Source: Paenibacillus thiaminolyticus (GTDB lineage Bacteria; Bacillota; Bacilli; Paenibacillales; Paenibacillaceae). Taken from it: DNA of 64,000 bases. A model generated the notes under the pieces. It was not told the DNA's origin, searched no databases, and worked only from the letters and a program-made list of their open reading frames with translations. The translations under genes and the position numbers were made by a program. The stretch covers positions 1,488,001 to 1,552,000 of the forward strand of contig NZ_CP041405.1 of assembly GCF_007066085.1 (NCBI RefSeq), written 5' to 3'. The number at the start of each line of letters is the position of its first letter. Position 1 is the first letter of the stretch. Below, piece after piece: positions 3,502 through 34,083 of this stretch.

Positions 3502-3504
3502 CTC

Positions 3505-3596
3505 AGCGCCTGCACTCCTGTTCTCTATGAAGTTTAGGAAAAACAACTAATATCATCTTACTATAGAAAGCTTATTTTTCAACATATTTCCACATT
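3505..3596. repeat. Left copy of a perfect 92-bp direct repeat
   Basis: Every base from AGCGCCTGCACTCC to TTTCCACATT is repeated at 31845-31936 in the same orientation, 28,340 bp away. The base on each side differs (C versus T before; T versus C after), so 92 bp is the exact limit. The left copy lies between the flavoprotein gene and a short gene remnant, a context that looks native. Together the copies enclose all of the biosynthetic and export genes. Confidence 0.97.
3555..3582 (-). promoter_or_regulatory. Candidate sigma-A promoter of the flavoprotein gene, inside the repeat
   Basis: On the minus strand, TTGAAA (3577-3582) is followed after 16 bp by TAAGAT (3555-3560). The RBS AGGAG and the ATG at 3501 follow about 55 bp downstream. 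The -35 is good and the -10 is 4 of 6. It is the only reasonable pair between the remnant stop codon and the gene. Confidence 0.45.
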
Positions 3597-3769
3597 TTTG
3601 CTAGAGTAAAAGGCATAAATAAATTCAGCACCTCCTGATCAAACTGGACGTGAGGTTTTCCGTCATGTTCCCATGTTCGTCCTTCATGCGCATGCAACTC
3701 ACAATCCATGCATATGACAGCTTCACTTCGCGTTCGGAACTGCGCTAGCGTTTGGCGTTTCTTTGCATA
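3572..3769 (-). pseudogene. Remnant of an unidentified gene (C-terminal part)
   Basis: A 65-codon open stretch follows a TGA at 3770-3772 and ends at TAA 3572-3574. Its composition is protein-like (for example EAVICMDCELHAHEG and FDQEVLNLFMPFT), but no RBS or start lies upstream. The last eight codons (MWKYVEK and stop) lie inside the 92-bp repeat and so recur at 31914-31936, but the coding continuation exists only at the left copy. It looks like the 3' end of a disrupted gene. I do not recognise the family. Confidence 0.4.
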
Positions 3770-4124
3770 TCAGTTCGTCAGACGTTGCCGGAAATACCGG
3801 TCAATTTGAATCATTCATTTGGGTACGCCGCAGAAATAAGCGCCGCTCCTCTTCCATCAGCGGAAGTGGGCGGCGCTATAGCTTAATGATGTAGCGAACC
3901 GATGGACAATACACGAGTACGAATATCGGTACTTGCTCAACATGCTGAAGGAGAAAAAATGACTTCCGGGAAGCATGTCTGTGCTGCACCCTGCCGAACT
4001 ATGTCGATCCCACTCGCACAAAATAGGATGGAGATATCTATATAGTCCTCTGTTCCGCCAAGAACAATGAGTGCCTGACACCTACTGCTCCTAGTTCTCC
4101 TGTTACTCTGCTGATAAGTTTTTG
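3597..4124. other. Intergenic region left of the export genes
   Basis: It holds the gene remnant (up to 3769), one hairpin at 3839-3877 and otherwise nothing convincing. A 63-codon frame (3937-4128) starting with a GTG that overlaps the permease stop shows no recognisable domain and is not annotated. Confidence 0.6.
3839..3877 (-). terminator. Probable terminator of the biosynthetic/export operon
   Basis: An 8-bp stem AGCGCCGC/GCGGCGCT has an inner CTTCC/GGAAG stem. On the minus strand it is followed by TATTTCTG, a weak T run. It lies about 250 bp past the last gene of the leftward operon. Confidence 0.5.
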
Positions 4125-6494
4125 TCACATGTTAGTCGGCGACGCGCCGAAGGTATGCACATACATCCGCCTAACGGCGAAGAGCACGGCATAATAAATG
4201 GCTACAATGATGACCAGCACCAAAACAAATGTATAAATACTGTAGATTAACGGAATAAAATCGTTCGTATTAAGCGAAACCATGTTGAGTATATATCTCA
4301 CAACCAATAAAGAGATCGGCGTAAACACGCAATATGAAACGGTCACAATAGCAATATATATATTCAACAACATATTGGCTATCTCCCTATCGCTGTACCC
4401 GATCATGCGGAGTACCGCCATGTTAGCTTTGTTCTCTTCTACCGTTATCAAAGCGACGAGCCACACCATGATGACCGCAATGACACCGCCGATGACCTGA
4501 TTCAGGACAGCGCTCAGTTGCGAGGAGGACGCCTGATCCTGCATTTCCTTGCGCATGCTCTCGGTGGATATGACTTTGCTGCCCTCTTCCTGCCGCGCAT
4601 CAGCCCCAAGCGAATGCGTGAACGAAGCGTTATAAATATCCGGTGAAATGCCGAGAGCCTTCGTCAACTGCAGCTTATCCATATAAACGGCCGCCGGATC
4701 TCCATTAGAACAGAAGGCCGCAATCGGAACGGCAACTTCCTTGCCGCCGAAAAGGAGCTTGATGGTCGAGCCGATTTGCAAGCCGTATAATTGCGCCTTG
4801 GAAACATGCACGATGGCTCCTTCCTTCAGCTTGGCATTCATCTCCCGTCCGCTTCCGTCCGACAATGTCAGCCACTGATCGTCGCCATCGAATGCCAGCA
4901 GATTGACCGTCGCTCCCGCCCGCTTGCCGCTGCCTTCGTCCCACGCCATGCGCTTGTTCTTCTGCAAATAGTAATCATTGCGGCTCCCATCATGCTGGGA
5001 AATCCTTGCTTCCGCATAATGAATATCGTATTGGTAGTGAACTCCGCGGAATCTCTGTTCTACCGCAATGGAGCTCGACTGATTCAATGACAAGCCCATA
5101 ATAAACAGGATCGACGACAGCAGTACCGTAATGCCAAGCATAACGATCATTTTCAGACTTCTTACAGACATTTGCAATTTAACTCGCCAAATGAAAGGCA
5201 GACCAGCCGTTGCGCGGCTTACCCACCTGGTAAGGAAATTAACGTGTTCCTGCTTCTGCCTGGCGTGAAGCATCGCAGCCGCGTCGCCGTTCATGATCCG
5301 AGCCAGCATCCAATAGGATGCCGCATTGAAGCCGATCATGATGACGAGCACACCCGTCAGCAAGGAAGAAGCATCAAGCTTCTTCGGAAAGGCGGGCATC
5401 ACATATTGGGCCTGAAACTGCTGGAGGAGCAAGTCGCTGGCAAAATACGCGAGAAGCAGACCCAGAATAACTCCAGCCGCACATAGCGCCGCATGAATGG
5501 CGACGTAGGCCTTACGGAGCTGGGCGCGCGGATAACCTAGCGCAATCAGACATCCCAGTGATTTCTGTTGCTGCCGCAAGCGGCGATTCAGAAAGATGAG
5601 AAATACCCCTGTGCATAACAGCGTCAAGATAATCAAAAATATGACCGCCATCCCGGAATTGGAAGCCGCGCCCTTCGCCAGTTCCGTCGCCTCGGGATTA
5701 TCTTGAGCAGGCAGGAAGGAAGCAAAGCGTACGTCCTCTGCCATTTGACGGATTACGTCTTCTTTATATACTCCATCTCGGAAACGTCCGCAAAAATAAT
5801 GAAATTCCTTGCCGTTAATCCTTTCATATTGCTTCGCGGACACGATAATATGGACAGGACGTTCTGCGTCAGCCGCATATCGCCGCATTTGTTCGGGAAG
5901 TATGACAGTTCCAGTAACGGCGTATGTCTGATCCCCGATTGTCAGCCGATCGCCGACCTTCCACGGCTGCCCCGTACCGGCATGTAAGGCAACGGCAATT
6001 TCGCCGTTGTCTGCGGGCATCCGCCCTTCTACGACATGAATCCGATTCACGCTCCGCTCGCTGACATCATCGTACCAGCGATAGAGAATTCCTTGATCGA
6101 CGTTCTCTTTATATTTCACCTCCGCTGCATCGAATCGATATTCCTCGCTCAAGCGCACAGCTGCCGCAGCTTCTTCATCCGGCAGTCGCAGCATGCCGGT
6201 ATCGATCAGGTTCTCCAGTCCAAGCGAGTCTAACTCTTGCTGGGATATGGATGCCCTCCGTGCAAGCTGCCGCAGCTTCTCTCCCTCCAGCAGCACGGCC
6301 AGATTTGGGCGGAAAGCAAAATGCTCCTGGCCGCTTGCTCCGGCAAAGCGTTCGTATTCCGTGCGGATTCCGTCCGAAGCATATTGAATAAAGAAATAAA
6401 TAAAGGATGTAGCCACGATGAGGAGAAGCATAAGCCATACCTGCAGCCGATGCTTCAACAAATCGCGCCACACTAACCTCATTACGTTTCTCAT
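4125..6494 (-). CDS. FtsX-type ABC transporter permease (large, 789 aa)
   Basis: The protein has an N-terminal TM helix (residues about 15-35), a large extracytoplasmic region, three TM helices near 280-400, a second TM near 450-470, a second extracytoplasmic region, and a C-terminal block of three TM helices (about 690-775). This double-FtsX layout is typical of MacB/YtrF-like permeases that move substrates out from the outer membrane leaflet or sense peptides. Such permeases often give self-resistance to peptide antibiotics. It follows its ATPase gene (stop 6519, start 6494; RBS GGGGAT) and is the last gene of the cluster operon. Export of, or immunity to, the lipopeptide is inferred from position. 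Confidence 0.85.
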   Translation of the reverse strand: MRNVMRLVWRDLLKHRLQVWLMLLLIVATSFIYFFIQYASDGIRTEYERFAGASGQEHFAFRPNLAVLLEGEKLRQLARRASISQQELDSLGLENLIDTGMLRLPDEEAAAAVRLSEEYRFDAAEVKYKENVDQGILYRWYDDVSERSVNRIHVVEGRMPADNGEIAVALHAGTGQPWKVGDRLTIGDQTYAVTGTVILPEQMRRYAADAERPVHIIVSAKQYERINGKEFHYFCGRFRDGVYKEDVIRQMAEDVRFASFLPAQDNPEATELAKGAASNSGMAVIFLIILTLLCTGVFLIFLNRRLRQQQKSLGCLIALGYPRAQLRKAYVAIHAALCAAGVILGLLLAYFASDLLLQQFQAQYVMPAFPKKLDASSLLTGVLVIMIGFNAASYWMLARIMNGDAAAMLHARQKQEHVNFLTRWVSRATAGLPFIWRVKLQMSVRSLKMIVMLGITVLLSSILFIMGLSLNQSSSIAVEQRFRGVHYQYDIHYAEARISQHDGSRNDYYLQKNKRMAWDEGSGKRAGATVNLLAFDGDDQWLTLSDGSGREMNAKLKEGAIVHVSKAQLYGLQIGSTIKLLFGGKEVAVPIAAFCSNGDPAAVYMDKLQLTKALGISPDIYNASFTHSLGADARQEEGSKVISTESMRKEMQDQASSSQLSAVLNQVIGGVIAVIMVWLVALITVEENKANMAVLRMIGYSDREIANMLLNIYIAIVTVSYCVFTPISLLVVRYILNMVSLNTNDFIPLIYSIYTFVLVLVIIVAIYYAVLFAVRRMYVHTFGASPTNM

Positions 6495-6518
6495 GAATAC
6501 ACATCCCCTGCAATGATG

Positions 6519-7223
6519 TTACCCCCAACTGATTTCCTCGGCCGAAAGCGGATGATCGTTCACTTCTTCGGCAATCAGTCGGCCGCTATTCAGCCTGATA
6601 ATGTGCCGGGCCATTTTCGCGATTCCGAGATGATGCGTGACGAAGACAATCGTAATACCGTATTTTCGCTGCATATTTTGCAAGCAGTTCAGCACCTGCT
6701 TTCCGTTCGCTTCATCCAGAGCGCCCGTCGCTTCGTCGCAAAACAGCACCTCGGGCTTTTTGATCAATGCCCTGGCAATCGCTACCCGCTGCTGCTGGCC
6801 CCCGGACAGTTCATACGGGAACCGGCTTTTCAGATGATGGATATTCAATTCCTTCGTGAGTTCATCCAAGTTGAGACTATCCACGTTCAGATATTGCCCG
6901 ATCTCAATATTTTCTTGAACCGTCAAATTCGAAATCAAATGATACTGTTGAAAAATATACCCTGTATGCTTCCGTCGAAATTCGACCAATTGCTTATCCC
7001 CATACCGGGAAATAGGCTGTTCGGCAAAATAAATTTCTCCCGCATCCGCCTGCTCCAGGCCGGACATCACGTTCAGCAAAGTAGACTTGCCGGAGCCGCT
7101 CGGACCAAGCAAAGCGACAAAATCGCCTTTTGTAATGCGGACGGTAATCCCGTCGAGCGCCCGAACCCGGCTTTCCTTTTCGCCATATGTCTTGCTGACA
7201 TTGTTGACTGTTATTAAGTCCAT
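6519..7223 (-). CDS. ABC transporter ATP-binding protein (MacB/LolD type)
   Basis: 234 aa with Walker A GPSGSGKST, Q-loop YIFQQYHL, signature LSGGQQQR, Walker B VLFCDEATGALD and an H-loop in FVTHH. The length and the FtsX-type partner downstream fit the LolD/MacB class. The preferred start is ATG 7223, 8 nt after GAAGGGGGAT; an in-frame upstream start at 7247 has no RBS. It begins 5 bp after the stop of the MFS gene, so the two are co-transcribed. It should power the permease at 4125-6494. Confidence 0.9.
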   Translation of the reverse strand: MDLITVNNVSKTYGEKESRVRALDGITVRITKGDFVALLGPSGSGKSTLLNVMSGLEQADAGEIYFAEQPISRYGDKQLVEFRRKHTGYIFQQYHLISNLTVQENIEIGQYLNVDSLNLDELTKELNIHHLKSRFPYELSGGQQQRVAIARALIKKPEVLFCDEATGALDEANGKQVLNCLQNMQRKYGITIVFVTHHLGIAKMARHIIRLNSGRLIAEEVNDHPLSAEEISWG

Positions 7224-7227
7224 TTGA

Positions 7228-8481
7228 TTATCCCCCTTCGTAACCATCGACCGCCGCGTGCTTGGTCTTGCTGTCTGTCAGGTACAACGCCACAAGAGCC
7301 GCGCTCGTCAATACGAGCAGGCCGCTAACGACGAAGAAAATGGGGAACACGCCGTATAAGTCGATCAACACCCCGCCCATCAAAGGGCCAACGATCGTGG
7401 CAAATGTGCTGAGGCTGCCGATAACTCCGAACACGCGGCTCGTATAAGACTCCGGCGTCAGCTTCTGAGCCATCGATTGGAAAGGAACAAATACGAGCGC
7501 CGCAAAACAACCGCCGAACAGTCCTAACGCAGGATACCATATCCACTTCCCTGACAATTCCCATTGCGTGAACAGGGTAATCAACACAAAAGCGACGCCT
7601 GCCCCGAGGCACCCCAGGGACATATAGGCAATTGCGCCGTTTATTTTCGCTTTGGACAAGTAAGCGGCGACCGCCAGCGTTCCGAGGCCGATCGCTCCCA
7701 TGACGATGCCGAACAAGGACGCCGGAACGTCGGACATTTCGCGCATCAGCACGACGAGTTGGGTATCCGTCAAGGTCAGCACAAGCATGGCGACGCTGAA
7801 TGCAATGGAGCTATATAGCAGAGCCGGCGTGTTCCGTATGAACGTTAATCCGTTTTTGAACAAAGAGACGAACGATTCCTCGCCCTTTCCGTCCTGTTCC
7901 TCCGGGATCGACCGCTTTGATAATCCCAGCAGCAGCAAGGCCGAAATGAGGAAAGACGCGGCGTCAATATAAAAGGCAAGCTTCACGCCCGTCACCGCCA
8001 CCAGCACCCCTCCGACCGCAGGCCCGACAATTTTGGATCCGTAGTCGATGATCGTCGTGATGCCGACCACCTGATCCATCTGCTCGTTAGGGACATATTC
8101 CTTCACCTTTCCGTTCTTGGCCGGAGTAAACATCGATTCGAAGGTTCCTTTCAGGAAGAACAAGCTGTACAACACCCAGATTTGATCCGTGAATGCAATC
8201 GCGAGCATGATGACGCAGCGAGCAATATCCGAAAATATCATGATTTTCTTGCGGTCGAATTTATCTGCCAACACGCCCGTGAGGGGACCGAAGAGAACAA
8301 ATGGAAGCCCTAAAGACAACGTGACATATGCCATTTCCATCGGGGAGGCTTCCATTTGAAAGCCGAACAAGGCCAGTATAGCGAGCAGGGATATTCCGTC
8401 TCCCAAAGCGGAAAATAGCTGTGCGGATAATAAATACACTACATTTTTATTGCCGAACAAACTCTGTTTCGCTGCTTCCAT
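7228..8481 (-). CDS. MFS exporter, second of a tandem pair
   Basis: 417 aa with twelve predicted TM helices and the MFS loop motif GVLADKFDRKK between TM2 and TM3. It belongs to the EntS/YfiS-like drug and siderophore exporter group (DHA3-type). The central loop (around 200-215) is charged and C-terminal residues are polar, as expected for a cytoplasmic tail. RBS AAAGGGGGGAAG precedes the ATG at 8481. It sits directly between another MFS gene and an ABC transporter in the same operon, so it is probably an export or resistance pump for the cluster product. The substrate is inferred. Confidence 0.85.
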   Translation of the reverse strand: MEAAKQSLFGNKNVVYLLSAQLFSALGDGISLLAILALFGFQMEASPMEMAYVTLSLGLPFVLFGPLTGVLADKFDRKKIMIFSDIARCVIMLAIAFTDQIWVLYSLFFLKGTFESMFTPAKNGKVKEYVPNEQMDQVVGITTIIDYGSKIVGPAVGGVLVAVTGVKLAFYIDAASFLISALLLLGLSKRSIPEEQDGKGEESFVSLFKNGLTFIRNTPALLYSSIAFSVAMLVLTLTDTQLVVLMREMSDVPASLFGIVMGAIGLGTLAVAAYLSKAKINGAIAYMSLGCLGAGVAFVLITLFTQWELSGKWIWYPALGLFGGCFAALVFVPFQSMAQKLTPESYTSRVFGVIGSLSTFATIVGPLMGGVLIDLYGVFPIFFVVSGLLVLTSAALVALYLTDSKTKHAAVDGYEGG

Positions 8482-8503
8482 GCAGACCGCTTCCCCCCTT
8501 TTC

Positions 8504-9754
8504 TCATTTCGCTTCCTTCACTGGATGGGATGAGCGCTGAGCCGATTTGCGCAGCTTTGCCAGAATCGCGGCATACCCCGCACTGGCCGCAAGGCCGAAG
8601 ACAAATATGCACACTCCCGCCCACAAGAACGTCGCGCCGATTCCGAGCCATGCCACGCCCATTCCTCCGAAGAGGGGCCCCAAAATATACGTAAGCGCCA
8701 TGACCGTGCCGAATTGCACCATTTTTGCGCGAGCGGCAGCCAATTGACCGAGCTTTTTCAGATAAAGGGAGAAGCCGATTTGCCAACATACGCCGCCGGC
8801 AAAAAACAGTCCCAATAGCCAGGCCACGTCCATGTGCCGGCTCATGGCCCACGTAACGGCAAGAAATACGAGCGCCAACCCTGCCGAGGACAGGCTTATC
8901 GCCTTGAAGGAGGGCTGGACTCCGGATGTTGCCACCCGCATCCGAACCAACAGCGTGCCGAGACCTGCGGCAGCCATCACATAAGCCACGATCGCGGCAT
9001 TATCCCATTGGTAGATGTCGCGGAACAACACGACCAATTGTGAATCGCCGACCGTGACGAAGAAGGACATCGCCGCAAGGATAATGAGCCCCGACATCAG
9101 GTATGCGCGAACGGATGCGTCCGGCGCCTCGCCTGGATGCTGCACGTTCCCGTTGTCCTGGGCCGGCTCCTCCCTGCTCGCTTCCCCCGCTCGCGCAGGT
9201 CTGGACAGAAAGGCTGCGGGAATGGCAGTAACGGCATAGGTAACGGCGGCTATCCACACGGTCACCTGCGGTTGCCATACCATCACGCTTAATCCGGCAG
9301 CCAGCGGCCCGGCGCACTTGACGATCGCCACCAGCCATTCGAACCGATTGTCAAGCGCCGCATATAGCTGCGGAGAGGTCATCCTCCGCAGCAATACCTC
9401 CTGTCCGTTAACAAAGCATCCGATGAGCAAGCCTTTGATGAGGATCAGCGCGATTGCCGCGGCAAAAGACGCCACGTATAAATGAAGGACCATGATCATC
9501 CCGCTCCCCCAAGCAGCTCCCATCATAACCAGTACATTCCGCTTCTGAATCCGTCCGCTTCCCATTGCTGTCGCCAGGGCCATGGAACCCGAAAAGCTCA
9601 TGATAAGAATCCCGAGCTGGATGGGCGTGGCGGCATGGTAAAAGCCCCAGTAATTCAGCATCGACACCAGATCGATCCACACGGCCACGTTAAAGATAAC
9701 AGCCGACCAGAACAGGATGCGGGCAACGGCAGACGGCGTATCGTTTGTTCCCAT
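8504..9754 (-). CDS. MFS-type transporter, first of a tandem pair
   Basis: 416 aa with about twelve hydrophobic helices and the overall layout of the DHA3 MFS group. The first cytoplasmic loop (SGRIQKRNVLVM) is shorter and less canonical than in its neighbour, with no clear GxxxDRxGR motif. RBS AAGGGGAG lies 9 nt before ATG 9754. It follows the methyltransferase stop by 17 bp. Two adjacent, diverged MFS genes could be paralogues with separate substrates or could form a heteromeric pump; the sequence does not decide. Confidence 0.75.
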   Translation of the reverse strand: MGTNDTPSAVARILFWSAVIFNVAVWIDLVSMLNYWGFYHAATPIQLGILIMSFSGSMALATAMGSGRIQKRNVLVMMGAAWGSGMIMVLHLYVASFAAAIALILIKGLLIGCFVNGQEVLLRRMTSPQLYAALDNRFEWLVAIVKCAGPLAAGLSVMVWQPQVTVWIAAVTYAVTAIPAAFLSRPARAGEASREEPAQDNGNVQHPGEAPDASVRAYLMSGLIILAAMSFFVTVGDSQLVVLFRDIYQWDNAAIVAYVMAAAGLGTLLVRMRVATSGVQPSFKAISLSSAGLALVFLAVTWAMSRHMDVAWLLGLFFAGGVCWQIGFSLYLKKLGQLAAARAKMVQFGTVMALTYILGPLFGGMGVAWLGIGATFLWAGVCIFVFGLAASAGYAAILAKLRKSAQRSSHPVKEAK

Positions 9755-9771
9755 AAAGACACGCTCCCCTT

Positions 9772-10582
9772 CTATGAGTTAGGTCTTACACCGCAGACGG
9801 CCATCATGATGAGCATGGCGTATGGGTGCTCACTGGCGAGAAAGGAAGAGACGCCTTTCTGCACGGCCGCCACTTCTTCTTCCGTTGCAAATCCGCTGTC
9901 CACCATCGTTCGCATCTCCTCGGCATCTACTTGCGGCAGGAAGGCTTCGATGCCGAGCTCGTCGCTATGTGAAGCGAGCAGCTTCAGCTGCAAATCGGCA
10001 TAGCCGGCCTGCTGCAGCATATGCCAGAGCTGGCGGCCAATGAACCGGTTGCCTCCTTGCGAAGCCTGCTCCTTGGCATGCTGATTCAACACGTGCAGCA
10101 GCTCCGGAATAACCGGATCGACCATGCCCCAGATGGCGTCATCCACATCCAAAATAATCAGCTTTCCTCCCGGTTTCAGCAGATCGAATATGTTCCTTGC
10201 GGCTTGTGCCGGATCCGGCACATGCTGAAACACAAGTCTGGCGATGGCGACATCGAATTGACCGAGCGGAAGGCCATGTTCCAGAATGTCTCCATGCACG
10301 ACGCTTACCCGTCCATCATCTCCGGGCGCAATGCGCTGCCGTGCATATTGGACGTAATAATCTTCGATTTCAATGGAAGTAATGCGGCTCGAAGGGAACA
10401 TTCGCGAGAGCTGCTCCGTTACGAATCCGGGACCGCTGCCAACCTCCAGAATGGAATCGCCGTCCTTGACGCCGAACTGTCCGAGAACCTGTTCTTCCTT
10501 GGACCAACTGATGTTCATTTGCCCCTTCATCCGTTCTAACAACCGCTTCAGCTTTCCTTCATCCATCATCAGCTTGTTCATG
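9772..10582 (-). CDS. SAM-dependent class I methyltransferase
   Basis: About 269 aa. SAM motif I is ILEVGSGPGFVTEQL, the acidic residue after beta-2 is in SIEIEDYY, and motif IV is FDVAIARLVFQHVPD. The start is ATG 10582, 6 nt after GAGGAGGA; the longer open frame runs into the end of the NRPS gene and is ignored. It lies 13 bp after the NRPS stop in the same operon. As the only tailoring enzyme in the operon, it probably adds a methyl group (O-, N- or C-) to the released lipopeptide or to an intermediate. The target atom is unknown. Confidence 0.85.
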
Positions 10583-10595
10583 TTCATCCTCCTCT

Positions 10596-16358: not shown

Positions 16359-16384
16359 AAGCACCCACCGTTCCACCGGAATTT

Positions 16385-22300: not shown

Positions 22301-25300
22301 AGCACCAAGTAGTGGCGGCGTTCTCCCGTGCGGAGCAGCGTCATCCGGTACAGCTCGCTATCCGACACCCGAATCGGACGACGGCACTCCTCTCTTATCC
22401 ATTGCTGTGCCGCTTCCTCCGTGCATGTCTTGATTGCCAGCCGGAACGCCTTTTCCTCCCTGACTAAGGAGAAGGGGATACCTCCCTCTTGATGAATGGT
22501 CGTCCGGAGAGAATCATGCCTGCGAATCAGCTCTTGCAGAGCTTGCTCAAGAGCCTCCACGTCCAGCGGTCCGTCAAGAGACAACGTGCCGGGCAGCAAA
22601 TAAGCCGTCTGATCCTCATCCAGCTTCTGCAGGAACCACATTCTCTGCTGGGCGCTCGTGAGCGGAGCCCGGTAATCCCCGGCCAGCTTCAGCGGAACGA
22701 TGTCCGCCTTGTCCGTTCCGCCCTCCGCCTTCTGCAGCATTCGGCGGATTTCGTATGCCATATCGCGCAGGGCGGGCTTGGCGAAGACCGTGCCGATCGG
22801 CAATTCGATGCCGAACACGTCATGAATGGCCGTGATGAGCCGGGTTGCCAGCAAGGAGTGGCCGCCAGCCTCGAAGAATTGCTCTTCTGGATGCACCTGC
22901 TTTTTCCCAAGCAATTGCTTCCATATTTGTATCATCACTTCTTCGACCATATCACTGCCGAAGCTGTTATCTTCCGGCGCGTCATGCATCCCGTAAGCCT
23001 CTTCGGCCTCCTCTGCAAGCAAGGAGCACAATGCTTTGCGATCCACCTTGCCATTGGGCGTCAAAGGCATGTCGCCTAGTACCACAAAGCGGGACGGAAT
23101 GTAATGGCCCGGCATGCGTTCTTGCAGAAATTTCCTTACATCCGTCTCCTCCCACGCTGATTGCGGCTTCATGACGACAAAAGCGACGAGCGAAGCCTGA
23201 TCGGGAGCCTCTCCGGCGACAATGACGGCACAGTGGGCAATGTCCGCACGCTCTGACAAGTGGGATTCGATTTCGCCGAGATGAAGTCTTACCCCCCTGA
23301 CCTTGACTTGATCGTCCCGTCTGCCAACGAACTGGAGCCTTCCGTCGGGCAGGCATCTTACCAAATCGCCTGTTCGATATAAGCGCCCCGGCTCGTGTCC
23401 ATCGCCGGCCGAAGGCGCAATGAATTTGGCCTCCGTCAATTCGGCATCGTTACAATACCCGCGGGCAAGCCCGATTCCGCCGACGTACAATTCGCCAATG
23501 CCCCCAGGCAATGGGCGCTGCATGTAGTCATTGAACACGTGCACCTCCACATTCGGGATCGCTTCTCCGAGATCGATGATCGATTCATCTGAACCGCATT
23601 CCTTGACCGTTACCCAGACGGTTGCTTCTGAAGGACCGTATGCGTTGTAAAAACGCCTTCCCGGAGCCCAGCGTGCCACGATATCGCGGGTGCACGCTTC
23701 GCCCGCCGATATGAGAACCTCCAATTCCGGCAAGTCCGCATTCGGAATCAGGGTTAGAACAGATGGAGGAAGCACCGCATGAGAAATCCGCTTTTCCCTC
23801 ATCCACCGTGCCATTGCCGCGCCGGGCATCAGCGTATCCCTGTCGGCCATGCACAGCGTTCCCCCGCTGCGAAATGCCATCACGACCTCAAACACCCAGG
23901 CATCGAAGCTGAAGGATGCGAACTGGAGCACCTTGCTTCTATCGCTAAGATTGAAATATTGACGCTGCGCCTCTGCCATGTTCCATATGCCGCAGTGCTC
24001 AATCATGACAGCCTTCGGCTTGCCAGTGGATCCGGACGTGAAGATGACATAAGCCAGGTCGCGGATTCCGACGTCCAGCCCGGTCGGCCTCGAGCTCTGG
24101 CCAGCAATGTCCGCCTCGTCCCGATCGAGCAGCGCCAGTTCGATGCCTTCTCCGAACGAACCCAGGCCGATCGGCGAAGTGCTGATGATGACCCTCATCT
24201 CGACCTTGTTCGCCATATAGGCGATGCGCTGCGGCGGATATGAGGGATCGATCGGCACAAAGACCGCGCCGAGCTTCAAGACGGCAAATACCGCTGCGAC
24301 CATGTCCGGCGAACGACGCAAGCACACTCCTACAAATTGGCCCTTCCGTACGCCTTTGCCGGACAGCCACCAAGCGATGCGATTCGCCCTATGCTCCAGC
24401 TCCAGGTAGGTCAACGTATCGTCCATGAACGTAACGGCCGCCGAGTCCGGCCGCTGCGACGCTTGATATTCGAGCAAATGATGCAGGCAGATGTGAGGCA
24501 GCGGCGCGGACGGGAGCTGCAACCGCCGGCCATGGTCAGATCGCGCATTCAGCCTCAGCGTGCCGATCCGCTCCTCCGGATTCCGCACGACCCCCTCGAC
24601 CAGCTCCGTATACAAGCGCGCCATTGTCTTCATGAAGGCGGCACTGAACAAATTCGAGCGATAGATGAAAGAACCATGGATGAACGCGTCCGTCTCCTCC
24701 ACCATCAAGACGAGCTCGAACGGCGTATCCTTGGTTCCCAGCGGCACCGGCCGCCAAATCATCCCCCCGAGCTCTGTCAGATCCTGATCATCGCTTATGA
24801 ATAGCGGAGAGCGAGTTCCATCCCCGCTTTGGGCCCGTTCCATGACAAACGCAACCTGAAACACGGATGAAATCTTGGCATCGCGCTCCGGCTGCAGCCG
24901 TTCCGCCACCAAAGGGAACGGATAATCCTGGTGCTCCAGTGCCGCCAGCATTGATCGCTTGACCGAATCCGCGAGCTTCCCAAATGGCAATTCGCCCGAG
25001 CACTCGAGGCGCAGGGCAACCGTGTTGACCAAATAGCCGAAACCCTCCTCGAAGCCGGCTTCGTTCCTTCCGGAGACGAACGTGCCGATGACGACTTCCT
25101 CTTGCTCCGTATAGCGATACAGCAGCGCAGCAAAGGAAGATAGCAGCAGCGTATTCACGGTAACACCGAGCTCCCTGCTTAATCGGATCACTTCTTGGGA
25201 CAAGGATTCACTGAACCTGAAGAGACAGTTTTCCCCTCTATGATCGTACGCGGAGGCTCCGCCCCCGACTTTGTCCGCGACCAGCGCGCAGATGGGCAGC

Positions 25301-25974
25301 GGCTCCGCAAGCGTACGCTCCCAGTAGTTCCGGTCTTGTTCTGCACGCTCACTCTGCAAATAACGCTGCTGCCAATCCACGAATGCGCTGTAGCTGCGGC
25401 TCTCCCGCAATCGATCCCGAACCGGAACGCCATGCTGGTACTGATTTGCGAAATCGCGCAGCAGCATGACGATCGACCATGCGTCCGCAATTATGTGATG
25501 CATGGATATCAATAGTCGTGGCGGACGATCGGGAGCATAGAACAGGAAAATGCGGAACAGCGGGCCATCATGCAATGAGAACGGCTCCCGCATGCAGCGC
25601 TGGAACAATTCTTCCGCTTCGGATCCCCAAGATGCGAGCCGATGCACCCGAAAATCAACTTCTCCGTCCGGCCTTACATGACGTTTGATCTCTCCGTCTT
25701 CTATAGAAAACACAGTGCGCAAAGAACTGTACGTATCATATACACTTTGAAAGGATAAGCGCAGCTTATGCTCATCCACAGGCGTTAACAGATCCCATGC
25801 CGCTTGCATATGGTAGGCGCAATTGTCCGGATGGGCCTGCTGCAGCAGCCAGAGCGCCTTCTGCCCGTAAGATGCCATCGTATCCCGCTTCACCTGACGC
25901 TGCTGCAGGAGCTGGCGGATCAGCCTTTCTTTGTCCTGGCGGGATAAGCCTGCAGTGACAATCGAATCGTTCAT
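19396..25974 (-). CDS. Dimodular NRPS: C-A-PCP-C-A-PCP
   Basis: About 2,192 aa. C1 has HHIIADAWS (near 163; the usual DG is DA). A1 has FDAWVFE near 690; its eye-aligned code is D-A-F-V-I-A-A-V-W-K, hydrophobic, with no exact match that I know. PCP1 is near 1038. C2 has HHIITDGWS near 1229. A2 belongs to a different subfamily: GLGHDPLLRDIF near 1766 resembles fungal Lys2 aminoadipate reductase, and its code is D-P-R-H-F-G-G-Q-I-K. PCP2 is near 2113. The C-terminus is a Lys/Arg/Gln-rich helix (KSKQRAAQQAQK), a likely docking tail. Neither module has an epimerase. Start ATG 25974 lies 9 nt after AGGAG. It adds two residues to the polyketide-extended fatty acyl chain. Confidence 0.92.
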   Translation of the reverse strand: MNDSIVTAGLSRQDKERLIRQLLQQRQVKRDTMASYGQKALWLLQQAHPDNCAYHMQAAWDLLTPVDEHKLRLSFQSVYDTYSSLRTVFSIEDGEIKRHVRPDGEVDFRVHRLASWGSEAEELFQRCMREPFSLHDGPLFRIFLFYAPDRPPRLLISMHHIIADAWSIVMLLRDFANQYQHGVPVRDRLRESRSYSAFVDWQQRYLQSERAEQDRNYWERTLAEPLPICALVADKVGGGASAYDHRGENCLFRFSESLSQEVIRLSRELGVTVNTLLLSSFAALLYRYTEQEEVVIGTFVSGRNEAGFEEGFGYLVNTVALRLECSGELPFGKLADSVKRSMLAALEHQDYPFPLVAERLQPERDAKISSVFQVAFVMERAQSGDGTRSPLFISDDQDLTELGGMIWRPVPLGTKDTPFELVLMVEETDAFIHGSFIYRSNLFSAAFMKTMARLYTELVEGVVRNPEERIGTLRLNARSDHGRRLQLPSAPLPHICLHHLLEYQASQRPDSAAVTFMDDTLTYLELEHRANRIAWWLSGKGVRKGQFVGVCLRRSPDMVAAVFAVLKLGAVFVPIDPSYPPQRIAYMANKVEMRVIISTSPIGLGSFGEGIELALLDRDEADIAGQSSRPTGLDVGIRDLAYVIFTSGSTGKPKAVMIEHCGIWNMAEAQRQYFNLSDRSKVLQFASFSFDAWVFEVVMAFRSGGTLCMADRDTLMPGAAMARWMREKRISHAVLPPSVLTLIPNADLPELEVLISAGEACTRDIVARWAPGRRFYNAYGPSEATVWVTVKECGSDESIIDLGEAIPNVEVHVFNDYMQRPLPGGIGELYVGGIGLARGYCNDAELTEAKFIAPSAGDGHEPGRLYRTGDLVRCLPDGRLQFVGRRDDQVKVRGVRLHLGEIESHLSERADIAHCAVIVAGEAPDQASLVAFVVMKPQSAWEETDVRKFLQERMPGHYIPSRFVVLGDMPLTPNGKVDRKALCSLLAEEAEEAYGMHDAPEDNSFGSDMVEEVMIQIWKQLLGKKQVHPEEQFFEAGGHSLLATRLITAIHDVFGIELPIGTVFAKPALRDMAYEIRRMLQKAEGGTDKADIVPLKLAGDYRAPLTSAQQRMWFLQKLDEDQTAYLLPGTLSLDGPLDVEALEQALQELIRRHDSLRTTIHQEGGIPFSLVREEKAFRLAIKTCTEEAAQQWIREECRRPIRVSDSELYRMTLLRTGERRHYLVLVLHHIITDGWSTGILLNELRQLYAIRVGQSRQTVPNPPLTYSDYARWEQEWIGSDSYCKQLQYWAGVLQQPIPPLLLPTDSPRTLASSYRGKQVSLKLPQALSEELKELGQRHNCTLFMTLVTVFNALLYRLSGTSDIAVGVPVANRHHRHLDQVVGLFVNTLLLRLDLSGNPDFNQLLLSARDAAINAYAHQDMPFDKLVEMARPDRDLSRSSMFQVMFNMLNIPPVTAQLSGLTTQIIELDEPDSKCELTLYALEQAEGIQLTMTYASNLFQEERATEMLAQFECLCRQIVNDPDWPIERYSLLTERSAAVLPDPGMPLREARDPLLQPVHVMFRHKAAQCPEAIAVIDSDDAEYTYRDLEERSDRLAAKLIRFARQRRGVIAIYGERSASLIVAMLAVLKSGSAFAVIDPAQPAIRATELLKASKADGIVFLSAERERLGGLLDEWARHVSFCIYGINGDDAADEEDSVRAMLAQLEKGCSLEDPAYVLFTSGTTGAPKGVQCTHEPLANFIRWHVNEFRLDWRDRFSMFSGLGHDPLLRDIFVPLSIGAAICIPDGSRMIIPEYVTEWMERRRITITHVTPAMGMVIAGGDSSGQKRCDLGAWRYAFFGGDVLMPSHIENIRAIAPQVRCLNGYGATETPQIMGIYSVPADPGPSIPIGKGREGVQLLVMDSDLGMKGIGETGEICIRSPYLASGYIGNAEAEQGRPAFVPNPYTSMEHDRIYRTGDLGRYLPDGNVEFIGRRGDFVKIRGYRVELREIQEAILRHSAIADCLTVCQADRDDRIIAYVVPAEKSFDPTGMQLHLRDRLPEYMLPAAYVELDQIPLTRNGKADTARLPEPGAFNFRESRQGTVLPETMLQRQIAEVWKRHLKVEEVGIHDNFFDAGGHSLLLLRVQQGLEAELARPIHVVDLFKYPTISLLAHYLEGNGNGTEAQRGVGVDEQRKSKQRAAQQAQKLRRKGERQ

Positions 25975-26008
25975 CTTGTTCATCTCCTGTCATTGATGTG
26001 AAGCACGA

Positions 26009-29000
26009 TCATGACCCCTTCTCTTGCGTTAACAGCAGAAGCAGCCGTTCCATGTCTTCGTCGGACAACTCGCCCAGATCTCGCTCCATGTCGCCGGAAT
26101 TCAGCAAATCGTCGATGCGCGATCGTTCTTCGTTGCTCTGCCTATCCCGGGCATCCAGCAGGATGCCGTGCAATTTCGATGCGGCCTGGCGGGTAGTGAT
26201 CCCTTCCAATAACTGAACAATCGGCAAAGATACTTGGAATTGCTGTTCGATCGCATGCTTCAGCTGCAGCGCCATTATGGAATCCATCCCGAGCATGACC
26301 AGCGGACGATCCAGGGACAGGTCGGACGCGGGAATTATCTTCAGCACGCTGGCGAACATGCCCTGCAAGTGCTCCTCGAGCAGTGGCAGCGTTTCCACGC
26401 GATCGCGTACGGCTTGAAGGATATGCTGAACTGAGGAAGCGTTTCTAGAGCTTTCCCTCGCCCGGTCCGTTTGCGATTCGGGCACCGCTCCAATCGTTCC
26501 TCTCTCCAGCGCCTCCGGATCGTCGATCCACAGCCGTCTCTTCTCCCAAGGATAGGTCGGTATGGCAATGCATTGTCCCCGGCTGCCGACGGCATTCCAG
26601 TCCAGATCCGCCCCATACCGGTATAACCTGGCCGCAGCCTCCGGCATGCATGCTCCGTCATCGCCCCTGCGCATCGAGAATGCCGCCAGCTTGACTTCTC
26701 CATCCTGACCGCATTCTTCTACATGCTGTGTGAGGACCGGATGAGGGCCGAGCTCTACAAAGGCATCGTATCCGTCCAGCATGGCCGCATGCAGCGCGTC
26801 CGCAAATCGAACAGGCTTGCGCATATTGTCGGACCAATGCTCCGCCCCCAGCCTCAGCCCATTCTCCATCCGCCCCGTCACCGTCGAATAGATGCGCAAG
26901 CGGGCCAGCCGGTGGCGAACCGGGCCAAGCTCGGTTTGAAGACGATCGCATAACGGCTCCATCAAGTGGCTGTGAAAGGCAAACGAGCTTGAAAGGAAAT
27001 GGGTTTTAACCGTATCGGGCAGGTTCCTCAGCAAGCGCTCCACTTCATGTGCTTCTCCGGCCACGACAACGGATGAGGGCCCGTTCACCGCCGATATCCC
27101 TACGCCCGGATATTCGCCGAGGCGCTGCTCGATATCGGCAAGCGGCATGCGTATGGAGACCATGGCACCTTGTCCCTTGGTCGATTGCATGAGCGTGCCG
27201 CGCCAATATACGATACGCATCGCATCTTCCAAGGTGAGCACGCCTGCCGCGTAGTGCGCGGAAATTTCCCCAAGACTGTGCCCGATGACCGCCTTCGGTT
27301 CAATTCCCCAGCTCCTCCATAGAGCGAGAAGGGACGCTTGAACGGCAAAGACGAGCGGCTGAGCCGCATCGGTGCGATCCGCCCAAGCATCGTCAGCTCC
27401 GCGGTGAAGTTCGTCCCACAACGACCATCCGGCATACTTGCTCCATATCGCATCGCATTCCAGGAATGTTCGTGTAAATGCGTTATCCCCGGATAAGTAT
27501 TGCAGTCCCATTCCGTTCCATTGATTGCCTTGGCCGGAGAAGACGAACACAAGATTGGACGGATCGGCGCTCGCGCAAGTCGCAGTAAGTCGCTCCAACC
27601 CAAGAGCGAGCTCCTCGCGATTGCTCCCGAGAACGGCTGCGCGCCAGGCACGGTGCGTACGCCTCTGCTGCGCCGTGTAGCAAATATCGTCCAACGAAGC
27701 ATCAGCGCGCTCCTGCAGGTATCGTTGCATGTCGGCAGCAAGACGCGTTAGGGAGCCGTGGCTATTGGCGGACAAAGGAAGAATATGTAATGAAGGAGGT
27801 GCCTGCTGCGATGTCTGCGCCGGCGGCATCAACGAAGTTGCATACTGCTGCAGCACCACGTGAGCATTCGTTCCGCCGAAGCCGAATGAGCTCACCCCGG
27901 CCACCGAAGGTCTGCTTCCTGACGACCAGCTTACCGGATCCCGCACGATCTGGAGCGGAAGATCGCGAAGCGGGATGTATGGATTGATCTCTTCCAGGTT
28001 CAAGTTCGGAACCCATTCCCGGTAGTGCAGGCAAAGCACGGTCTTGATGAAGCCGGCAATGCCGGCAGCCGCCTCCAGATGACCGATGTTGGTCTTGACC
28101 GAACCGATATAGCACTTGCTCGCAGCGGATCGGTTCCTAGACAGCACCCGCCCTATAGCCTGAACTTCGATCGGGTCTCCCAAAGCGGTTCCCGTCCCGT
28201 GCGCTTCGATATAGTCGATTTCCTCTCCGGATAAGCCCGCGATGCGGTACGCATCCTGCAGCACCTCTTCCTGGGCCTGACCATTGGGTGCAGTTAAGCC
28301 GTTGCTTAAGCCGTCCTGATTGATGGCACTCCCCCTGATCACGGCGTATATGCGATCACGGTCGCGAAGGGCAGCAGCCAGCGGCTTCAAGATGACCGCG
28401 CCAGCTCCTTCTCCCCGTACGTAACCGTCAGCGCGCGAATCGAACGTTTTGCACCTGCCGTCTGCCGAGAGCATTCCCGCTTCGCGGAAAGCTTTGCTGA
28501 TGGCCGGATTCAATATCACGTTCACCCCGCCCGCGATCGCCATATTCGTCTCGCCCGTTTTCAAACTTTGGCAAGCCAGATGAACCGCGACGAGAGAGGA
28601 GGAGCAGGCTGTATCCACGGCCATGCTGGGGCCCCGCAAGTTCCATATATACGAAATTCGATTGGCGGCAATGCAATTGGAATTTCCCGTCACCGTATAA
28701 ATGCCGCTTCGCTCGTAATCGGACAGCTTGCCGCAGCCGTAATCGTTGCTGGAAATGCCGACGAACACGCCCGTCCTCGAGCCGTTCATCGCTTCGTTCG
28801 TCAATCCCGCATCCTCGAGCGCCTCCCATACCACTTCCAACAGCATGCGCTGCTGCGGATCCATCTGCTCCGCCTCGCGGGGAGATAAGTGGAAGGCTTC
28901 ATTATCGAACAGGTCGATTTCTTCAACGATACCGGCACGGTGCATACCGTCCTGCGCGAACCGTGACGAGCGCAGCCCGGGCATCTCCGTGATGCAATTT

Positions 29001-29383
29001 TCTCCGCTGCGGAGATGATGCCAATATTCGTCGATGCTGCGCGATTTGGGAAATCGGCAGCCCATGCCGATGACAGCAATCGCGTCCTCTTGCTCGGCTC
29101 CGCAGTCATCTCGCGCTGCATGCCCATTCTCCCCTCCGAACGCAAAATGCCGAGCCACGGCTTGGATGGAAGGATAGTCCCAGAACAGGGTTGGATCAAC
29201 GGAACGCTTAACGAACGATTCCAATTCACCGGATAAAGACACCAATTCCTTCGAGTCAAGGCCATATCGGGAAAATGGAAATTCGGCCTTGATTTCATGT
29301 TGCGATATTTGCTTCAGCGCGCTGATTTGCTGCACGAACCAATTACATATGTCCTTGTAACGCTTGTCCTGTCCCTTGTCCAT
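26009..29383 (-). CDS. PKS loading/extension protein: ACP-KS-AT-ACP
   Basis: 1,124 aa. An N-terminal ACP (GLDSKE, Ser near residue 40) can accept the acyl group made by the adjacent acyl-AMP ligase. The KS has TACSSSLVA (near 258), EAHGTGTALGDP and KTNIGHLEAAAG. The AT has GHSLGEIS near 701 and FAFH near 803, close to the malonyl-type HAFH. A second ACP has GMDSIMAL near 1033. There is no KR. The layout parallels mycosubtilin- and iturin-type starters, where a ligase primes an ACP with a fatty acid and one malonate is added. Its start overlaps the ligase gene end by 41 bp, and the RBS (GTGGGGTGG) is weak, so coupling is likely. Confidence 0.92.
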   Translation of the reverse strand: MDKGQDKRYKDICNWFVQQISALKQISQHEIKAEFPFSRYGLDSKELVSLSGELESFVKRSVDPTLFWDYPSIQAVARHFAFGGENGHAARDDCGAEQEDAIAVIGMGCRFPKSRSIDEYWHHLRSGENCITEMPGLRSSRFAQDGMHRAGIVEEIDLFDNEAFHLSPREAEQMDPQQRMLLEVVWEALEDAGLTNEAMNGSRTGVFVGISSNDYGCGKLSDYERSGIYTVTGNSNCIAANRISYIWNLRGPSMAVDTACSSSLVAVHLACQSLKTGETNMAIAGGVNVILNPAISKAFREAGMLSADGRCKTFDSRADGYVRGEGAGAVILKPLAAALRDRDRIYAVIRGSAINQDGLSNGLTAPNGQAQEEVLQDAYRIAGLSGEEIDYIEAHGTGTALGDPIEVQAIGRVLSRNRSAASKCYIGSVKTNIGHLEAAAGIAGFIKTVLCLHYREWVPNLNLEEINPYIPLRDLPLQIVRDPVSWSSGSRPSVAGVSSFGFGGTNAHVVLQQYATSLMPPAQTSQQAPPSLHILPLSANSHGSLTRLAADMQRYLQERADASLDDICYTAQQRRTHRAWRAAVLGSNREELALGLERLTATCASADPSNLVFVFSGQGNQWNGMGLQYLSGDNAFTRTFLECDAIWSKYAGWSLWDELHRGADDAWADRTDAAQPLVFAVQASLLALWRSWGIEPKAVIGHSLGEISAHYAAGVLTLEDAMRIVYWRGTLMQSTKGQGAMVSIRMPLADIEQRLGEYPGVGISAVNGPSSVVVAGEAHEVERLLRNLPDTVKTHFLSSSFAFHSHLMEPLCDRLQTELGPVRHRLARLRIYSTVTGRMENGLRLGAEHWSDNMRKPVRFADALHAAMLDGYDAFVELGPHPVLTQHVEECGQDGEVKLAAFSMRRGDDGACMPEAAARLYRYGADLDWNAVGSRGQCIAIPTYPWEKRRLWIDDPEALERGTIGAVPESQTDRARESSRNASSVQHILQAVRDRVETLPLLEEHLQGMFASVLKIIPASDLSLDRPLVMLGMDSIMALQLKHAIEQQFQVSLPIVQLLEGITTRQAASKLHGILLDARDRQSNEERSRIDDLLNSGDMERDLGELSDEDMERLLLLLTQEKGS

Positions 29384-31106
29384 TTAGTCCACCCCACACG
29401 AATAAACTTCCGTTCAGATACATCTCTTTGCACTTGCGGCGCTGAATCTTGTTACTGGTCGTTTTCGGGAGATTCAAAGGCTTGACGAGCTTGACATCAT
29501 AGGCATATAGCTGGAGCTGTTCGGCAATGGCTTCGCGAATTCGATGAGCAATCCCGCTGCAGCAAGCTTCCCAATCGAGTTGCTGGCGCTGCACGGCATG
29601 CTTGAATTCCCGGTTCATTTCGCACACTACGACAAGTTCCTCTCCGCCCTGCACCTCTATCGAAAATGCGGCCAGACTCGCCCCGTTAATATCCGGATGA
29701 CAGCTGGCGGCAATCTCCTCGATATCCTGAGGATAATAGTTCTGTCCCCGAATGATGATCAAGTCTTTCAGCCGTCCGGCTATGTATAATTCGCCACCGT
29801 GAACAAAGCCGAGATCACCGGTGCGCAAGAACGGACCTTCCTCCGAATCCAACAAATAAGCCGCAAATGTCGCTTCGGTCTCGACCGGGGCATCCCAATA
29901 GCCTTGGGCGACGCTTTCTCCCTTAATCCATATTTCGCCGATTTCGCCCGCCTCACATTCGAGCTGGGTGGACGGGTCTACGATTTTAATCTGATGATCC
30001 GAAAAAATCGAACCGCAGCCGACCTGGGCACGCGCCGCATCCCCGTGGGCTTTGACTGGGGCGACATTGTTCTGCTGGAGCGCCTTATCGTCCAGATAGA
30101 GCAGCTTCTTTTGCGCCTCTTTGGCCGCAACGGTCACGCACAGCGTCGCCTCGGCCAGGCCGTAGCTAGGCAGCAGCGCTTCATCGCGGAAGCCGCATAC
30201 TCGGAAGCTATCGCAAAACTCGCGGATCGTTTCTGCCCGAACCGGTTCGGAGCCGTTGAAGGCGATCGCCCAAGGGCTCAGATTCAGTTCTTGTTTATCT
30301 TCATCCGTTATTTTTTGGACGCATAGCCGGTAGGCAAAGTCGGGGGCTCCACTGAAGGTAGCTCGATATTTCGTGATCGTCCGCAGCCATCGAATCGGCT
30401 TTTGGATGAAATCCATGGGCGACATCAGATAACAGCTTCCGCCATTGTATACGTTTTGCAGCACATTCCCGATGAGCCCCATATCATGGTACATCGGCAG
30501 CCAAGACACCATAATCGTGTCATTTGAATGATAGAATCGTTTCTTCATGATTTCGAAATTGTGGAGTAAATTGCGATGGCTTACCATTACGCCCTTCGGA
30601 GTGTTGGTAGATCCGGACGTATATTGAAGAAAAGCGATATGGTCGCTCGGGATTGTTTGTGCCCGATAGACAAATTCATCGTCACGCTGCAGAATATCGT
30701 CAAGCTTAATGGAGTAGGCATTTCTCATCTTCTCTGGAAGCTTCGTGGAATCAAGGGGAGATTGCGTAATAAGCAGGGCAGGCTTCGCATTCTCATAGAT
30801 CGCTGTGATTCGCTGCCCATTGCGCGACTTGCCGGGAGGAAAGGATGGCACCGGCAAGGCGCCAGCCTGCAAGCATCCGAAAAAAGCAATGATATAGTCG
30901 ATCCCGCTCGGCAGCAGAATCATGACTCTCTCGCCGGCCAAGTTCAGAAATTGAAAATACGCGGCAAGCTTCTGGGAACGGAGGCGCAGCTCATGATAGG
31001 TGCAGCTTTCACTCTCGAACTCCCCATTTTTCAAATAAATAAACGCTTTGCGATTGGGATAGTGATACGCCGTATAATCTAGCATTTCTAACAAATTTTT
31101 ATACAT
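29343..31106 (-). CDS. Fatty acyl-AMP ligase (FAAL)
   Basis: 587 aa of the ANL family. P-loop-like YTSGSTNTPKG is near residue 166, followed by MVSWLPMYHDMGLIG and RTITKYRATFSGAPDFAY, both hallmark stretches of FAALs rather than acyl-CoA ligases. The enzyme activates a free fatty acid as acyl-AMP and passes it to an ACP, here probably the N-terminal ACP of the next protein. It is the first gene of the roughly 27-kb operon; RBS AAAGGAAG precedes ATG 31106. Chain length cannot be read from the sequence. It defines the product as acylated, that is, a lipopeptide. Confidence 0.93.
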   Translation of the reverse strand: MYKNLLEMLDYTAYHYPNRKAFIYLKNGEFESESCTYHELRLRSQKLAAYFQFLNLAGERVMILLPSGIDYIIAFFGCLQAGALPVPSFPPGKSRNGQRITAIYENAKPALLITQSPLDSTKLPEKMRNAYSIKLDDILQRDDEFVYRAQTIPSDHIAFLQYTSGSTNTPKGVMVSHRNLLHNFEIMKKRFYHSNDTIMVSWLPMYHDMGLIGNVLQNVYNGGSCYLMSPMDFIQKPIRWLRTITKYRATFSGAPDFAYRLCVQKITDEDKQELNLSPWAIAFNGSEPVRAETIREFCDSFRVCGFRDEALLPSYGLAEATLCVTVAAKEAQKKLLYLDDKALQQNNVAPVKAHGDAARAQVGCGSIFSDHQIKIVDPSTQLECEAGEIGEIWIKGESVAQGYWDAPVETEATFAAYLLDSEEGPFLRTGDLGFVHGGELYIAGRLKDLIIIRGQNYYPQDIEEIAASCHPDINGASLAAFSIEVQGGEELVVVCEMNREFKHAVQRQQLDWEACCSGIAHRIREAIAEQLQLYAYDVKLVKPLNLPKTTSNKIQRRKCKEMYLNGSLFVWGGLNGQGTGQALQGHM

Positions 31107-31239
31107 CCTCGACTTCCTTTCTCATTCGGAAAATTACACAAAAAAAAGAAGACAGGCGTGTTATACATAGCGACATCAACGGCTATATTGTCTATTTTTA
31201 CACAAGAAGAGTATGGAATTTGAGTTTTGGCCGGTAAGG

Positions 31240-31484
31240 GGTCAAAAAACGAGTTCAGTAGTTCTTTCATATCATCCAGAAAACGACTGTAAAAGCGTGG
31301 CATGATGAATGCGAGCGTTATCCAATACCATGACGGTTTGGCCCGTCGGATAGGGAGCAACTACCTGTAAGCAAACTGGTGCACCCTTTTTTGGAAAAAG
31401 GAGGTGATTCTCTTGTTTCGTATGCGCTCGTTGACACTTCGGTGGAGTAATTGAGGCCGGAGTCCAGTTAAAATGAAAATGCAA
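31240..31484 (-). pseudogene. IS630-family transposase remnant
   Basis: A 70-codon frame contains PYPTGQTVMVLDNARIHHA, the DDE-domain segment around the second catalytic Asp of IS630 transposases, followed by TLLQSF. It then stops. Just beyond, a degraded TELVF-PL stretch resembles the next part of the family (ELVFLPPYSP) with stops. No N-terminal helix-turn-helix, no catalytic C-terminal Glu region and no clear terminal inverted repeats were found. It is the debris of an insertion sequence between the cluster's first gene and the right repeat. Confidence 0.75.
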
Positions 31485-31844
31485 AGCCTGTTAACGTTCA
31501 TACATGCAAAGTTTTTTCTTTACATATGGCTAGAGTGACTTCTTCTAATTTTGAATTCCATCTTGATTCCCTGCCTATTTGATTATGGTTTCTTTAGTTA
31601 TTCGACAAACAGGCATGAAATCCATTTCCATAGTTTATAATTTTAAGTTCAATTTATATAAACAACCTTAAAATACCACTATATATTCTTGGTGTCAATA
31701 CTTCAATAATCATGTTATTGTTCTTCTGTTATAATGTTATCCTATAACTGTTCTGGGATAATCTCACTATGGGACAGAGGATAATTGCATTGAAGAATGC
31801 CGCGACAAAGAAAATTCTGGTTGTGGAAAAGTATCGAGCTTAGT

Positions 31845-31936
31845 AGCGCCTGCACTCCTGTTCTCTATGAAGTTTAGGAAAAACAACTAATATCATCTTA
31901 CTATAGAAAGCTTATTTTTCAACATATTTCCACATT
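31845..31936. repeat. Right copy of the perfect 92-bp direct repeat
   Basis: Identical to 3505-3596 in sequence and orientation. Here it is not next to a flavoprotein gene; it sits 739 bp upstream of the FAAL start, with a terminator and the AraC promoter on its right. Unlike the left copy it has no coding continuation on its right side, so it looks like the derived copy. Confidence 0.97.
31895..31922 (-). promoter_or_regulatory. Duplicated promoter pointing into the biosynthetic operon
   Basis: The same TTGAAA - 16 bp - TAAGAT pair as at 3555-3582, carried by the right repeat. It faces left, toward the FAAL start at 31106, with no obvious terminator in between. It could drive or add to transcription of the whole operon. 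Confidence 0.35.
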
Positions 31937-31942
31937 CTCATG

Positions 31943-31972: not shown

Positions 31973-32029
31973 CATCCGGCTCCCATAGATAAAAGATGGA
32001 ATTGCCGGCAACTTCTTAGGACTCCCATA

Positions 32030-32038: not shown

Positions 32039-32074
32039 TTTTTGTAAAACGCATGATCGAAAGGAGGGCATTCG

Positions 32075-34077: not shown

Positions 34078-34083
34078 ATCGTT

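Follow-up and report, generated by a model that had tools for sequence, protein, structure and literature searches.

A 92-bp direct repeat brackets a biosynthetic gene cluster

We analysed a stretch of 64,000 nucleotides from the Paenibacillus thiaminolyticus contig NZ_CP041405.1 (positions 1,488,001 to 1,552,000), here called the window and numbered from its first letter, in which an antibiotic-type lipopeptide cluster of nonribosomal peptide synthetase (NRPS) and polyketide synthase (PKS) genes lies between two copies of a 92-bp sequence. The left copy (3505-3596) and the right copy (31845-31936), both on the minus strand, are identical across 92 bp, in direct orientation and 28,340 bp apart, as an earlier note on this DNA had claimed and an exact-repeat search bore out. 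The match grows by 0 bp to either side, and the second-longest exact direct repeat within the window is 30 bp. A search of the source genome (6.61 Mb, a single contig) at E <= 0.001 returned only two matches, namely the two copies themselves. A chance origin of an exact 92-bp match is out of the question. A group of short direct repeats of 20-30 bp is located at 59872-60478.

The insert between the copies is 28,248 bp long (3597-31844). All of the genes in the bracket are on the minus strand, and Pfam annotation agrees with the note's description of their content as assembly-line, tailoring and export genes only. To the left of the bracket lies a gene for a flavoprotein of the flavin amine oxidoreductase family (1858-3501, minus strand; Pfam Amino_oxidase, 2.4e-24). 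Its ATG at 3501 and an AGGAG sequence were judged by eye, the Pfam scan having begun at the TTG at 3546.

The repeated sequence is upstream DNA of the flavoprotein gene

The left copy is found directly upstream of the flavoprotein gene and covers its promoter and ribosome-binding region, the ribosome-binding sequence again being recognised by eye. We compared 19 genomes of the genus, with G000 as the source genome, and found a DNA match to the flavoprotein region in 13 of them. Because six genomes that lack the cluster at this site (G010, G003, G011, G002, G017 and G013) have a recognisable form of the 92-bp region upstream of the orthologous gene, comparison among relatives identifies it as host upstream DNA. 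The right copy is an orphan promoter region directed at the cluster. Promoter-like hexamers are present at 3582-3555 in the left copy and at 31922-31895 in the right copy, but both signals are weak, with 1 site found against 1.2 expected from shuffles on the left and 5 such sites in the stretch against 2.6 expected on the right.

The cluster and its empty site in related genomes

The bracketed cluster occurs at this site in 4 of the 19 genomes: G000, G007, G016 and G008 (P. dendritiformis G25-126). Orthologous clusters reside at other places in three more, G003 (P. apiarius MW-14), G011 (P. profundus) and G014. A search for the starter enzyme in 295 genomes of the family (E <= 1e-150) gave a match in eight, these seven and G278. 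No 92-bp match was found beside the orthologous clusters of G003, G011 and G014 at the sensitivity of the search for the repeat, which therefore is a property of the target site and does not travel with the cluster. In G000, the left-hand and right-hand neighbours of the cluster of P. apiarius map to two separate places, so that no simple former home was found.

The site is without the insert in G010 (P. popilliae) and in other cluster-free species. G010 carries the flavoprotein gene, a single copy of the 92 bp, and then sequence resembling the right flank, including a terminator-like hairpin. The scan placed this hairpin, the ancestral right neighbour of the 92 bp, at 31948-31977 (minus strand) of the window. 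When the 5' end of the flavoprotein gene, one copy and the right flank were joined by script, the product aligned to G010 unbroken over positions 1-230 at 86.5%; the alignment of the left junction to the same genome ended at 192, which is the end of the repeat. A weaker result was obtained for G013 (7-210 at 67.7% for the joined sequence, versus 7-130 for the left junction), and in G003, G011, G002 and G017 the test does not separate the left from the right flank at the empty site. Judged from these alignments, G010 has an empty site in which a single copy joins the flavoprotein gene to the right flank, and the note's proposal that the repeat is an insertion scar holds. Its further expectation, that in a cluster-free relative one copy would join the flavoprotein gene to the AraC side, was borne out in part: the junction exists in G010, but the AraC gene does not, as past the empty site G010 skips to window position 37365. 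The cluster may have been lost from G010, or it may never have been present there.

A deletion in G009 corresponds to positions 3467-37204 of the window and has removed the cluster, the left repeat, the AraC side and the first codons of the flavoprotein gene (L084). This genome groups with the carriers G008 and G016 in the rpoB tree (1.00) and weakly in the rpoB+gyrB tree (80/50). As to the note's idea that recombination between the copies would remove the cluster and leave one of them, G010 would fit it on the flavoprotein side, whereas the cluster of G009 went with a larger deletion.

Boundaries of the insert and search for mobile-element machinery

At the left end of the insert we identified a relic derived from the 3' end of a group II intron (D5-D6; 3601-3820, minus strand), ending 4 bp from the left repeat. 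It matches at 75% three mutually identical copies in G009 (L019, L023 and L024). G009 and G007 contain related copies at several places, and most of these begin at the same bases. One copy, L024, matches Rfam Intron_gpII at the position equivalent to the relic. The relic itself has no Rfam match, with none at E up to 5 in 3400-4200, and at gathering thresholds Rfam finds nothing in the whole window. Within 3400-6000, three plasmid records matched, every one at a place annotated ltrA. The relic has decayed to differing degrees across the four carrier species.

The right end has a different composition. A transposase relic with broken frames (31220-31675, minus strand), presumably IS630-like by its motif, is multicopy in relatives; for its parts at 31220-31366 and 31457-31675 there are several matching places in G009 and one in G011. 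It is followed by the start of an insertion sequence (IS) at 31716-31837 (plus strand), which breaks off just short of the right repeat, by a few bases. In G009 and G011 the cognate copies measure about 1.47 kb, and the similarity stops at 31830-31837, about 120 bp into the element. By these matches, the insert is not bounded by the paired ends of a single mobile element. A composite transposon with target duplication was rejected, the intron relic on the left and the truncated IS on the right being unmatched ends.

The genes profiled in the bracket are all biosynthetic or transport genes, and the only mobile DNA seen in it consists of the IS and intron relics. Phage_integrase has 10 matches in the genome, all outside the window, which confirms for tyrosine integrases the note's statement that the window holds no integrase; the genome-wide family search covered tyrosine integrases and not serine recombinases. 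No tRNA was detected by ARAGORN anywhere in the window. Thirty bases taken from the repeat matched 0 stretches in viral contigs, and no phage record matched 29343-32902. Ku is encoded elsewhere in the genome, and end-joining is therefore possible.

Age of the insertion and later exchange

Both junctions fall at identical bases in G000, G007 and G008, save for an extra piece at the right junction of G007. The left junction of G016 is at the same bases too, and its right junction is missing a short stretch. Beside the right copy, G000 differs from G007 at 14/129 sites on the left and 16/81 on the right, and from G008 at 17/130 and 19/82, a divergence of 11-23%, while G007 and G008 differ from each other at just 3/129 and 3/87. 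At 4-fold sites of rpoB and gyrB, the divergence from G000 is 7.7% and 11.8% for G007 and 13.6% and 19.6% for G008. We infer that the insertion dates from about the time at which the carrier species split, and we read the flanking haplotypes as having been exchanged between these species since. Across 31250-32074 the haplotypes cross the species tree, G007 going with G008 on both sides and G000 with G016 on the right side.

The absence of any difference between the copies of G000 (0/92) would by itself fit a recent insertion. This is scarcely credible, as the bracket is common to four species and the junction DNA of G000 has diverged from that of G007 and G008.

The interior of the cluster has a different record. 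Because the assembly-line genes (10596-31106) diverge at 4-fold sites by only 2.5-7.8%, versus 12-22% in the histidine kinase (HK) and flavoprotein genes of the carriers, the data suggest that the cluster interior was later exchanged between species. A sharp drop in divergence exactly at the repeats, as expected from transfer of the whole unit, was looked for and is absent. Divergence instead shifts inside the unit, and the repeats are therefore not the borders of the interior exchange.

Likeness of the two copies within and between species

Over 88 compared sites, the left and right copies differ at 0 in G000, 2 in G007, 2 plus one gap in G016 and 9 in G008, and left copies differ between species by 0-2. 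The right copy of G007 differs from that of G000 at 1/92 positions, against 30/210 in the flanks (Fisher p = 0.00014), and from that of G008 at 9/92, against 6/216 in the flanks with an inserted piece excluded (p = 0.017). When the 140-base right flank is used, the copy is likewise more alike than the flank for G000-G007 (p = 0.00027) and G007-G016 (p = 0.0021). The inserted piece, found in G007 alone of the four, is a 115-bp fragment of flavoprotein sequence at the left edge of the right copy; it originates 336 bp beyond the left repeat and is 98.3% identical to the G007 flavoprotein gene. Because the G007 copy is of the left type in G008-like flanks and has this fragment at its edge, the simplest reading is that it was repaired from a left locus, which would be ectopic gene conversion. 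The note had considered homologous recombination the simplest model for the repeats. Such recombination probably does act on them, but the pattern observed looks like gene conversion.

Proposed history of the locus

The explanation that we favour, and consider reasonably probable, is an insertion, with no recognisable recombinase, that duplicated a host promoter, followed by upkeep of the two copies through conversion. A 28-kb cluster would have entered the flavoprotein upstream region, most simply once, in the ancestor of the carriers, and would have doubled 92 bp of host promoter DNA as it did so. The flavoprotein gene would have retained one copy, with the other remaining by the far-side terminator and pointing at the cluster. 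Ectopic gene conversion would then hold the copies alike in three of the four species, probably mostly from left to right because the left copy is the promoter of a gene, and G008 would represent the unconverted state.

Several observations weigh against this history. The 115-bp piece is equally close (98.3%) to the flavoprotein genes of G008 and G009, and its source need not be the same chromosome. With the 140-base right flank alone, there is no contrast between copy and flank for G007-G008 (9/88 vs 14/135, p = 1) or for G000-G016 (2/88 vs 3/140, p = 1), and the copy is more alike than the flank also for G000-G008 (p = 0.0017) and G016-G008 (p = 0.0041), though the copy of G008 is supposedly unconverted. 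With 88 right and 130 left flank bases, a choice made afterwards because of a deletion further right in G008 and underlying the G007 contrasts over both flanks given above, the G000-G008 comparison gives p = 0.075. The contrast tests are small, uncorrected and partly picked after a first look. The flank haplotypes are mosaic (G007 and G008 differ by 2-3%), and transfer between species blurs both the age and the conversion. The branching of G010 is unsettled: it joins G000 and G007 at 79.6/78 in the rpoB+gyrB tree and is sister to G000 with support 1.0 in the HK-flavoprotein tree. If it is nested among the carriers, its empty site may be secondary, the product of loss. Finally, selection on the right copy, relaxed in G008, could also explain the likeness in three species.

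This last point amounts to an alternative in which the right copy was kept by its function as the cluster promoter and not by gene conversion. The copy is oriented with the cluster, no terminator on the minus strand separates it from the first gene in a scan of 31100-32080, and the right copies of G000, G007 and G016 depart by only 0, 1 and 2 changes from what the left copy of G000 reads, in G007 amid flanks as divergent from G000 as given above. We nevertheless think this alternative unlikely, given that the G008 copy has 8-9 changes, that 738 bp with IS relics separate the right copy from the first gene, and that the flavoprotein piece at the edge of the G007 copy suggests copying.

For the first duplication within the favoured history, two routes appear possible, and we rate them about equal, each tentatively. 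A broken molecule that bore the cluster together with a stub of the flavoprotein promoter might have re-circularised and integrated by a single crossover through homology in the promoter. The join 31844|31845, where no clear shared bases are seen by eye, could then be the join of the circle. This route has the closest published precedent, in the available text of PMC3240628, but presupposes a donor whose cluster was already in contact with the promoter; none was seen, and the three orthologous clusters lie elsewhere. The other route, equally tentative, is that a staggered double-strand break in the promoter, with a width of about 92 nt, captured the cluster as a linear fragment and was then filled in and end-joined. 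It takes a single event with no special donor, and boundaries that are not two ends of one element, the want of clear shared bases by eye and the presence of Ku all fit it; on the other side, 92 nt is a long stagger, end-joining has left no direct trace, and the left join is blurred by what happened later at the edge (the intron and deletions). Template-switching may also have produced the first duplication. Attachment sites or a long target duplication, brought about by an integrative element or a transposon, would offer a ready account of the clean direct repeats and the empty site, yet this is very unlikely in view of the absence of a tyrosine integrase and a tRNA from the window, the right end within a truncated IS, the biosynthetic and transport content of the profiled genes and the orthologous clusters elsewhere without the repeat. 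The note's suggestion of an attachment-like site fails on this last point and on the conserved host origin of the 92 bp, and an attachment site or island was rejected.

Comparison with known systems

In E. coli, according to the available text of PMC3240628, a PCR product for a duplication was obtained in 56/60 clones, and 14 that were sequenced carried duplications of 109-950 bp, interpreted by the authors as the outcome of single crossovers of a partly degraded, re-circularised plasmid. The same text gives 3-10 bp of microhomology as usual in homology-facilitated illegitimate recombination (HFIR), with none in 3/4 E. coli cases. The locus described here resembles Campbell-type single-crossover integration in that host DNA is directly repeated on either side of the insert, the empty site holds one copy and there is no dedicated recombinase. 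It differs in that there is no known donor and the repeat is slightly shorter, old and common to four species. As in HFIR, a junction that looks illegitimate (31844|31845) lies next to a region of homology, but HFIR generally deletes host DNA, and here host DNA is duplicated.

Host DNA is doubled on both sides of the insert as in the target-site duplications of transposition, but no element ends or transposase of the whole unit were found. A length of 92 bp is also far beyond that of the usual target-site duplication. Integrative and conjugative elements and genomic islands with att repeats similarly have direct repeats bracketing a gene cassette and an empty site, whereas the window here has neither a tyrosine integrase nor a tRNA, the repeat consists of upstream DNA of the host, and relatives have the cluster elsewhere without it. 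No description of the repeat or of the cluster was found in the literature searched, which included the available text of PMC3240628 and PMC13036774, and we make no claim that they are unpublished.

The repeat is thus a real insertion scar, and neither an attachment site nor a sign of a recent event. What makes the locus interesting is its empty site, its age and the fact that conversion has probably refreshed the repeat. It records a way for a large biosynthetic cluster into a chromosome that involves no recognisable recombinase, can be roughly dated, and has left both an empty site and several descendants. It is also a warning against taking a perfect flanking repeat as a mark of recent insertion, since conversion can refresh a repeat. 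A further idea, which we consider quite improbable, is that the doubling left the host gene its promoter and gave the cluster a copy kept functional by conversion, tying expression of the cluster to that of the flavoprotein gene. If the right copy were an active promoter, the incoming cluster would have been wired to a host promoter in one step.

Genes inside and beside the bracket

The gene order of the cluster, given by Pfam and read on the minus strand, starts at its right end with an AMP-ligase starter enzyme (29343-31106; AMP-binding), the first gene, whose position and family suggest that it is fatty-acyl-AMP-ligase-like. It is followed by a PKS with KS-AT-ACP domains (26009-29383), an NRPS with two C, two A and two carrier domains (19396-25983), a second PKS with KS-AT-ACP domains (16385-19399) and a terminal NRPS with C-A-MT-PCP-reductase domains (10596-16376). 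A methyltransferase (9772-10680; Methyltransf_11), two MFS proteins (8504-9754 and 7228-8481; MFS_1), an ABC ATPase (6519-7247; ABC_tran) and an FtsX-type ABC permease (4125-6494; FtsX) complete the bracket.

To the right of the bracket lies a gene for an AraC-family regulator (32075-32902, plus strand; Pfam HTH_AraC). This gene and an MFS gene, together spanning 32075-34383, have GC content at third codon positions (GC3) of 0.37 and 0.46, as compared to 0.59-0.79 in ten other measured genes, and DNA related to this segment sits elsewhere in G011 and G017. Because of the low GC3 and the related DNA elsewhere, the two genes look like a separate acquisition.

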